Below are positions 44,841 through 45,760 of a stretch of DNA of 64,000 bases, piece by piece. The translations under genes were made by a program, and so were the position numbers. This DNA is from Thermococcus sp. AM4. Lineage in GTDB: Archaea > Methanobacteriota_B > Thermococci > Thermococcales > Thermococcaceae. Position 1 is the stretch's first letter; each line of letters opens with the position of its first letter. A model generated the notes under the pieces. That model was given only the letters and a program-made list of their open reading frames with translations. It searched no databases and had not been told where the DNA came from. The stretch is from the NCBI RefSeq assembly GCF_000151205.2, contig NC_016051.1, positions 1,674,001 through 1,738,000 of the forward strand, written 5' to 3'.

Positions 44841-45682
44841 TTACAGCCCTTTCTGACGAAAGCGCTGGCGGAAAATTGGGTGCTTTTTTTTAAATTCGGC
44901 AGTTGTGACGGAGTTTCTTTTTGACTTGCTCTTTCAAGAGTGTTTCACTCCTCAAACGGCGTCCTTCGGACGCCAAAACTAAGTTGAAACTAATACTCAA
45001 GGCATCTTTGAAGTTAAACTCGTTTTAAACTCGCGTCTTAATTAATGCACGACTGACCTCTTGCTCCTTATTGAGAAGAAGGGCATTCTTTTGGTCAAGC
45101 TTTGTTAAAGCTTGTTCGCCTGCGCGATGTCGAGCTTTGCTCGACGCAAGGGACGATAGTCCCGCAGAGTTTGACCAAAGTTCGTGATTCCCTTTTGAAT
45201 TGCTGTTCGTTGAGTGGATTTCTTCTTGAGTTACTCCTCTTGAAGGGATGAATTCCTTTGAAAGCGCCTTTTATAAGAGGTTCAAGCCTTTTAGCGCTCC
45301 TTCGGAGCGCGGTTCAAGTAGAACCCGCGCGTAAAAAGCCTTAACTTACTGAATTCAAACTTTAAATGGCGGGCTTGATTTTGAAATCCCATTGCAAGAA
45401 GCCCTAAAAAGAAATCACGATCTTTGATGAAACTTTACGAAGACAAAGTTTCTTGGTCAGGCTTTTTCCCAAAAGCTTGCTTGTGAGTGTTTCACTTGAG
45501 AAGGCGTCCTTTGGGCGCCGATATGAGATTGAAACTATCTTACAAGAGCTTGTTTAATACTCGCATCGAACTCTCCAAATTCGAGAGTGCACGACTAACT
45601 TTTTGCTCATTTGCAGGAGGGGCGTTCATTTCGCCAGCCTTTCCCAAAGGCTGTTGCAAAGTTTCGTCAGAAAAGGTTTCTA
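44841..45682. other. Palindrome-rich noncoding region between two convergent tRNA genes
   Basis: 842 bp without a credible gene. It holds many perfect hairpins with 3-base loops: GGCGTCC/TTC/GGACGCC (44958-44974), GTCGAGC/TTT/GCTCGAC (45129-45145), GCGCTCC/TTC/GGAGCGC (45294-45310), AGCCTTT/CCC/AAAGGCT (45636-45652) and GGCGTCC/TTT/GGGCGCC (45503-45519, one wobble pair). Others are GGGAC/GATA/GTCCC (45150-45163), GGTTC/GAACC (45311-45325) and GAAACTTT/AAAGTTTC (45429-45452). TTTGGTCAA (45090-45098) pairs with TTGACCAAA (45171-45179) around three of the hairpins, giving a four-way junction. Blocks 44934-45070 and 45484-45610 look like two diverged copies (shared GTGTTTCACT, a GGCGTCC hairpin, GCACGACT and TTGCTC). 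Confidence 0.6.
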
Positions 45683-45760
45683 TGGTGGACCGGGCGGGAT
45701 TTGAACCCGCGGCCTCCGCCTTGCGAGGGCGGCGCTCGTACCAGGCTGAGCTACCGGCCC
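45683..45760 (-). tRNA. tRNA-Ala (anticodon CGC)
   Basis: Acceptor GGGCCGG pairs with CCGGTCC, including the alanine identity pair G3:U70. Anticodon arm CCGCC-CTCGCAA-GGCGG with anticodon CGC. Discriminator A and encoded CCA. No intron. Apparent protein readings through this gene are artefacts. Confidence 0.95.

Follow-up and report, generated by a model that had tools for sequence, protein, structure and literature searches.

Thermococcus chromosomes have a reputation for rapid rearrangement. Yet few insertion sequences or repeats are said to occur in these genomes (PMC2718504). In a culture of Thermococcus nautili an inversion was described between two tRNA-Gly genes, which took place via a 176-bp identical segment, and the in vitro crossover was in the 3' half of the tRNA and the conserved stretch behind it (Cossu et al., 2017; PMC5495485). 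One sequencing error in the 176-bp segment was corrected by the authors, and Thermococcus inversion endpoints were mapped to tRNA pairs, one case being without recombination in vitro (PMC5495485). The segment, which consists mostly of the repeat unit described below, is treated in the passages considered here as a conserved sequence after paralogous tRNA genes and not as a genus-wide repeat (PMC5495485).

Short palindromic repeats located between genes are a known kind of element, while siting at RNA 3' ends, a period of ~31 bp and a link to inversions are new in the family reported here. No description of this family was found under Thermococcus palindromic, MITE or REP repeats in the literature covered, which is incomplete. 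With bacterial REP/BIME and similar repeats the family shares that it is short, noncoding, palindromic, present in many copies and often clustered between genes. However, a REP element is a single palindrome of a few tens of nucleotides, whereas the present unit is ~290 bp long, contains several hairpins and the ~31-bp period and is anchored at RNA 3' ends, and most carriers of the units are without a RAYT-type Y1 transposase. To our knowledge, neither an internal period of ~31 bp nor anchoring at RNA 3' ends is among the features of REP elements. MITEs resemble the units in being gene-less, multicopy and short, with inverted terminal repeats (here the covarying ends) and recent copies at several loci; they differ in that for the present units neither an autonomous parent (Y1, plasmids and phages were checked) nor a target duplication was found, and in that the units lie almost exclusively behind tRNA and sRNA genes. 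An archaeal histone dimer corresponds to about 30 bp of DNA, and archaeal histone-positioning DNA is resembled by the units in their period near 30 bp and in the near-helical alternation of AT and GC. The present units differ from such DNA in being palindromic, dispersed and subject to rapid turnover, and they are known in this respect from the periodicity of their sequence.

The window analysed here, a stretch of 64,000 nucleotides from Thermococcus sp. AM4 (contig NC_016051.1, positions 1,674,001 to 1,738,000), contains at positions 44841-45682 an interval which is a three-unit array of a Thermococcus-wide, short, gene-less, palindromic DNA repeat family. The interval is flanked by two complete and convergent tRNA genes assigned by ARAGORN and Rfam, namely tRNA-Val(TAC) at 44764-44840 (+ strand), whose CCA end anchors the array, and tRNA-Ala(CGC) at 45683-45760 (- strand), which anchors its other end. 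It is AT-rich (41-46% GC vs. ~56%) and, as a preliminary description of this DNA had maintained, gene-less, being devoid of a long ORF that would account for the structure. The array opens 3 nt past the CCA of tRNA-Val with a left end hairpin of "type 2" (CAGCCCTTTC-TGAC-GAAAGCGCTGGCGGAA; 44844-44873, + strand), an end which lies directly behind 23 of the 161 tRNA flanks examined. Palindromic unit 1 spans 44848-45114 (nhmmer with an iterated unit model, E 2e-31) and carries the perfect inverted repeat GGCGTCC-TTC-GGACGCC as its central hairpin (44958-44974). Unit 2 at 45162-45452 was detected with an E-value of 6e-48 by nhmmer and of 4.6e-49 in the whole-genome model search, its central hairpin being the perfect inverted repeat GCGCTCC-TTC-GGAGCGC (45294-45310). 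Partial unit 3 (45467-45665; nhmmer, E 3e-17) includes a type 2 end hairpin facing tRNA-Ala (CAGCCTTTCCCAAAGGCTG, a perfect inverted repeat at 45635-45653), and comparison of tRNA flanks identified a type 1 end in degenerate form (45656-45680, - strand; GAAACCTTTTCTGACGAAACTTTGC when read on the strand of tRNA-Ala) 2 nt past the CCA of this tRNA. No strand is assigned to the units, their central hairpins, the linker between units 1 and 2 or the end hairpin facing tRNA-Ala.

The linker at 45090-45179, supported by folding, exact stems and recurrence of its cassette, is composed of the end hairpin of unit 1 and the conserved cassette CGCCTGCGCGAYGT(hairpin)ACGCA.GGGACGAYAGTCCCG, which opens unit 2. 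It is the four-way junction of the preliminary description, whose 9-bp stem (TTTGGTCAA/TTGACCAAA; 45090-45098 with 45171-45179) and three perfect hairpins (45099-45111, 45129-45145 and 45150-45163) were confirmed to the exact position; in its best fold the outer stem is longer and a fourth small hairpin, TCGC-CTGC-GCGA, is added. The junction is not an isolated RNA and not the functional centre; it joins units 1 and 2 of the array and represents one of several (about four) alternative ends of units. Further perfect hairpins do lie outside of the junction, but those with 3-nt loops number five at arm lengths of 5 or more and not six, and they are accompanied by other perfect hairpins with loops of 4-8 nt. 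The hairpin density had been judged to exceed chance, and it does so: within 44841-45682 eight perfect hairpins reach an arm length of at least 6, against a mean of 1.9 and a maximum of 6 in 500 dinucleotide shuffles, and six with arms of 7 or more, against a mean of 0.58 and a maximum of 3 in 500 shuffles. A CRISPR array, i.e., identical direct repeats with unique spacers, was sought within the interval and not found. An integrated tRNA-targeted element of the pTN3/TKV type would bring an integrase gene and, at its far end, a duplicated 3' half of the tRNA; it was considered and rejected, since the interval is gene-less and lies between two complete tRNAs.

Of the explanations offered in the preliminary description, that of a family of palindromic elements is correct, since the same units recur across nearly every Thermococcus genome. 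Blast with the 842-bp interval matched 24 of 41 genomes, all of them within Thermococcus. A unit of ~290 bp was derived by iterated profiles from sub-alignments showing repeated self-complementary modules, and the search of other Thermococcus genomes that had been proposed gave matches to its consensus in 58 of the 61 genomes of the genus. Among 94 Thermococcaceae genomes 75 match, three sister genera weakly, while the genera g9 and g12 gave no match and the Pyrococcus-like genus is without arrays. Blast with the unit consensus proved insensitive in the AM4 genome and a sequence-model search was used instead; applied to whole genomes, it located ~14 arrays in the AM4 genome (G000), 20 in G010, which we take to be T. 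kodakarensis, and 17 sites in G012, presumably Thermococcus sp. 4557.

From one end to the other, a unit consists of an end hairpin, of which several types exist, a left arm, a central GC hairpin, a mirrored right arm and again an end hairpin. The central loop measures 3 nt in 111 of 125 units, with TTC and GAA being equally frequent, and the ends of a unit covary over a distance of 250 nt (e.g., GTGATTC..GAATCAC vs. GTAGCTC..GAGCTAC). The junction cassette recurs as an alternative unit end in ~20 arrays from at least 10 genomes, and its stem occurs in compensated variants (GTCGAGC/GCTCGAC, GTTGAAGC/GCTTCAAC, GTTGGAGC/GCTCCAAC and GTCGGGC/GCCCGAC). The symmetry of the consensus arises partly by construction, because the profiles take both strands of near-palindromes; covariation and the self-matches of single loci are independent of this imposed symmetry. 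Column-pair covariation on a MAFFT alignment of first units was too noisy because the end types differ.

Folding of the 90-nt junction as RNA resulted in z-scores of -6.4 (+ strand) and -5.2 (- strand) relative to dinucleotide shuffles, and folding as DNA in -5.6 (+) and -5.0 (-), with 0 of 200 dinucleotide shuffles being as good in either case. The strong RNA folding scores, the covarying stems, the tight spacing behind the CCA and the occurrence of hairpins followed by T-runs near the tRNA speak for a structured RNA, in which the four-way junction would be the core and which would be produced either as a folded 3' trailer by tRNA read-through or as an independent ncRNA. We regard such an RNA, which the preliminary description had also put forward, as improbable. 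Both strands fold almost equally well, the central loops are of 3 nt and strand-symmetric, convergent RNA genes often run into an array from either side, and a search of the interval with Rfam at a permissive threshold returned tRNA matches only and no other family. Moreover, G-U mismatches at paired sites of the tRNA-sense strand are not in excess of A-C mismatches (3:4; 35:25, p 0.25; 67:74, p 0.61; comparisons of limited power), which argues against a folded transcript, as this should favour G-U. The strand-symmetric covariation lends no support to a folded transcript, and 3-nt loops together with strand symmetry agree alike with hairpins in DNA, with inverted sites for a protein and with hairpin-templated correction.

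The position of the arrays is set by the 3' ends of RNA genes. In G010, 16 of 43 tRNAs are followed by a unit at a distance of no more than 60 nt, and in AM4 the same holds for 11 of 47 tRNAs, a total that includes one tRNA pair twice owing to overlapping stretches; in neither genome does a unit lie upstream of a tRNA. In G045, from the Pyrococcus-like genus without arrays, a unit follows none of 25 tRNAs. In most cases 2-3 nt separate the CCA from the end hairpin. About 50 of 51 array loci in G000, G010 and G012 abut the 3' end of a tRNA, a C/D-box sRNA or an RNA-like gene, a tally for which RNA-like elements and a tRNA remnant were judged by eye, and none lies upstream of such a gene. Those arrays which were initially unassigned adjoin intron-containing tRNA-Ser, tRNA 3' halves or a tRNA remnant; the arrays L134 and L229 are located between two convergent C/D-box sRNAs, and L130, L224 and L218 behind two unannotated RNA-like elements. 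Among 34 scored arrays, 16 lie between convergent features and one between divergent features. The suggested link to a recombination system where tRNA genes converge is thereby modified: recombination is supported by the data given below, but convergence is not needed, and any stable RNA gene can provide the anchor with its 3' end.

Three loci deserve mention for their surroundings. At L133:2239-2503 the array begins ~8 nt past the stop codon of a protein gene, this being the sole locus of the ~51 without an RNA-like neighbour. A degenerate tRNA remnant is found near the array at L131:2380-2480, as if the RNA gene had decayed after arrival of the array. The array between tRNA-Asp and tRNA-Lys (end of L033 and start of L034; G000:2085793-2086428 and 1-433) spans the start of the circular record.

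Comparison of copies within and between genomes reveals how the units behave over time. In the AM4 genome one unit occurs with 92-98% identity behind tRNA-Gly(ccc), tRNA-Gly(tcc), tRNA-Ile and tRNA-Trp, its identity being sharply bounded at the tRNA side and fading just past the far hairpin, and therefore units spread between RNA genes. For 46 of the 50 units in G010 the best match is another locus of the same genome, a number to be taken as indicative as other genomes were partly sampled. The dph5-tRNA-Val site carries an array in 26 of 28 readable orthologues and the end types differ among them; the unit content turns over while the site remains occupied. Its far partner varies and is tRNA-Ala(cgc), tRNA-Arg(ccg), tRNA-Arg(tcg), tRNA-Gly/Phe or no tRNA, and in G014, presumably T. 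gammatolerans, the orthologue of the array is a shorter mosaic. The gene adjacent to L070 faces tRNA-Gly and an array in the AM4 genome, whereas in its three closest relatives it faces tRNA-Leu(tag) with an array, tRNA-Leu(gag) with an array and an empty tRNA-Gly, respectively; most relatives have no tRNA beside it. Given these varying partners of tRNA and array at the L070 and dph5 sites, arrays coincide with rearrangement junctions.

The arms of the units have a period of ~31 bp: at lag 31 the identity is 0.302, compared with 0.255 for shuffled sequences (z 15), and echoes follow at 61-62. The autocorrelation of weak and strong bases within units peaks at 11, 20, 30, 41, 50 and 61. These two properties, the occupancy of the dph5-tRNA-Val site in nearly all species and the predominance of convergent over divergent surroundings argue for a chromosome-architecture or insulator element of the host, in which the ~31-bp period and an AT/GC alternation near the helical repeat would phase archaeasomes or TrmBL2 filaments, and which would isolate strongly transcribed RNA genes, block convergent read-through or stall SMC. 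We consider this possible, though doubtful. More than half of the tRNAs are without an array, a tRNA with an array in one species can have an empty orthologue in another, and Pyrococcus-like genomes have no arrays although TrmBL2 exceeds the other TrmB-family proteins of Thermococcales in conservation (PMC4158304). The ~31-bp period leaves room for a possible role in chromatin, and an array such as that at the dph5-tRNA-Val site, present in 26 of 28 species, may be retained for a function.

Evidence that the units take part in recombination comes from G058, which we take to be T. nautili. Its two tRNA-Gly loci are identical, save one base, over 176 positions starting just past the anticodon mismatch, and these positions are made up of 41 bp of tRNA, a spacer of 2 nt and 133 bp of the repeat unit. 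The genome contains the primer site from the published study, and the 176 positions match the crossover segment given in that study, including the corrected error (Cossu et al., 2017; PMC5495485). As 133 of the 176 bp belong to the repeat unit, the repeat formed most of the substrate that recombined in vivo. For the arrays as a cause of rearrangement rather than a mere marker, it is solely this published inversion that carries the causal part.

In the reading that we favour, and regard as rather probable, the units are non-autonomous palindromic elements which are spread by recombination, anchored at the 3' ends of RNA genes, maintained at the DNA level and suppliers of rearrangement substrates. 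Family, anatomy, anchoring, copying between loci, turnover and one case of recombination are the observations from which it is built. Recombination, gene conversion or template switching would spread the units, with the 3' half that tRNAs share and the recurring hairpins as probable anchors, and the units would persist where insertion is harmless, that is, behind a completed RNA. In spreading, they would supply many dispersed chromosomal substrates for inversions, with host repair or integrases of low specificity, e.g., Int-pTN3, as the probable agents, and the perfect hairpins may be kept via palindrome correction at the DNA level or via a constraint by DNA structure or protein, and not by an RNA fold. 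The spacing of 2-3 nt is more precise than simple insertion tolerance predicts and counts against this reading, as does the occupancy of one site in nearly all species. Neither a mobilising enzyme nor an autonomous relative was found when Y1 transposase was searched in 94 genomes and plasmid and phage records were inspected, and no record of the plasmid and phage collections matches the unit. At the loci compared, no target-site duplication was recognised and there was no clean pair of empty and occupied sites, so that transposition and gene conversion are not separated. A Y1/HUH transposase was rejected as a partner, RAYT-type Y1 (PF01797) having 0 matches in G000 and being present in 25 of 94 genomes overall. 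A dif site near an array was sought with a pattern based on the dif of P. abyssi; each genome yielded a single weak candidate, no better than the reversed control.

That the units are ordinary MITEs or REP-type relics of a known transposon which targets RNA-gene 3' ends appears very improbable to us. They are short, gene-less, palindromic and multicopy with inverted hairpin ends, and near-identical copies exist at different loci, as would be the case for such relics; however, no parent element was found, the AM4 genome contains no Y1/RAYT gene, a target-site duplication was not recognised, and the ~31-bp internal period and RNA 3'-end anchoring are not known from REP elements. A bolder proposal, which we deem unlikely, is a transposase-less palindromic element whose copies a mechanism reading RNA-gene ends would place specifically at the mature 3' end of stable RNA genes, both tRNA and C/D sRNA, and which would serve as the dispersed rearrangement substrate of the genus and possibly as a phased-chromatin insulator.

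With a quarter to a third or more of the tRNA genes followed by it, the repeat family would provide the substrate that has been missing for rearrangement, an idea that can be tested in T. kodakarensis with its 20 arrays. Moreover, the units offer work on archaeal chromatin a natural collection of sequences with this ~31-bp period, and the family exemplifies a repeat anchored at RNA-gene ends.

Other conserved sequences are found in the immediate flanks of arrays and tRNAs. A second repeat, CAACGAAAGACAAGGGGGCTCCGCCCCCTTATCTCTCTGTACTCTCAAACCCCCGGAGTGGGG..., directly follows the tRNA and lies between the CCA and the palindromic unit at L036:1090-1200, at L034 by tRNA-Lys and at L138/L139 by tRNA-Arg(ccg). 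The 3' flank of tRNA-Gln(ctg) (L012, L038, L099 and L140) carries the conserved sequence TTCAACTGGGCTCCAGA.GAACTTCGAACCCC.., which is distinct from the palindromic unit. A conserved RNA-like element, CTGCCCGACGAGTATGGGGTTGCGATGACGTCGGGACCCCCAGGGGGGCGACA..., with a TATA-like box upstream and no match in Rfam, adjoins arrays at the far end of L003/L041 and at L218:~1230-1310. Finally, a conserved short element, ATTTAAAAGGCTTTCGAACC.TTCCACCC..TTTTTGGGTTG...TTTTTTTGCAAAG, adjoins the arrays of L018, L042, L130 and L224 and resembles a small transcript with a putative promoter and terminator of its own.
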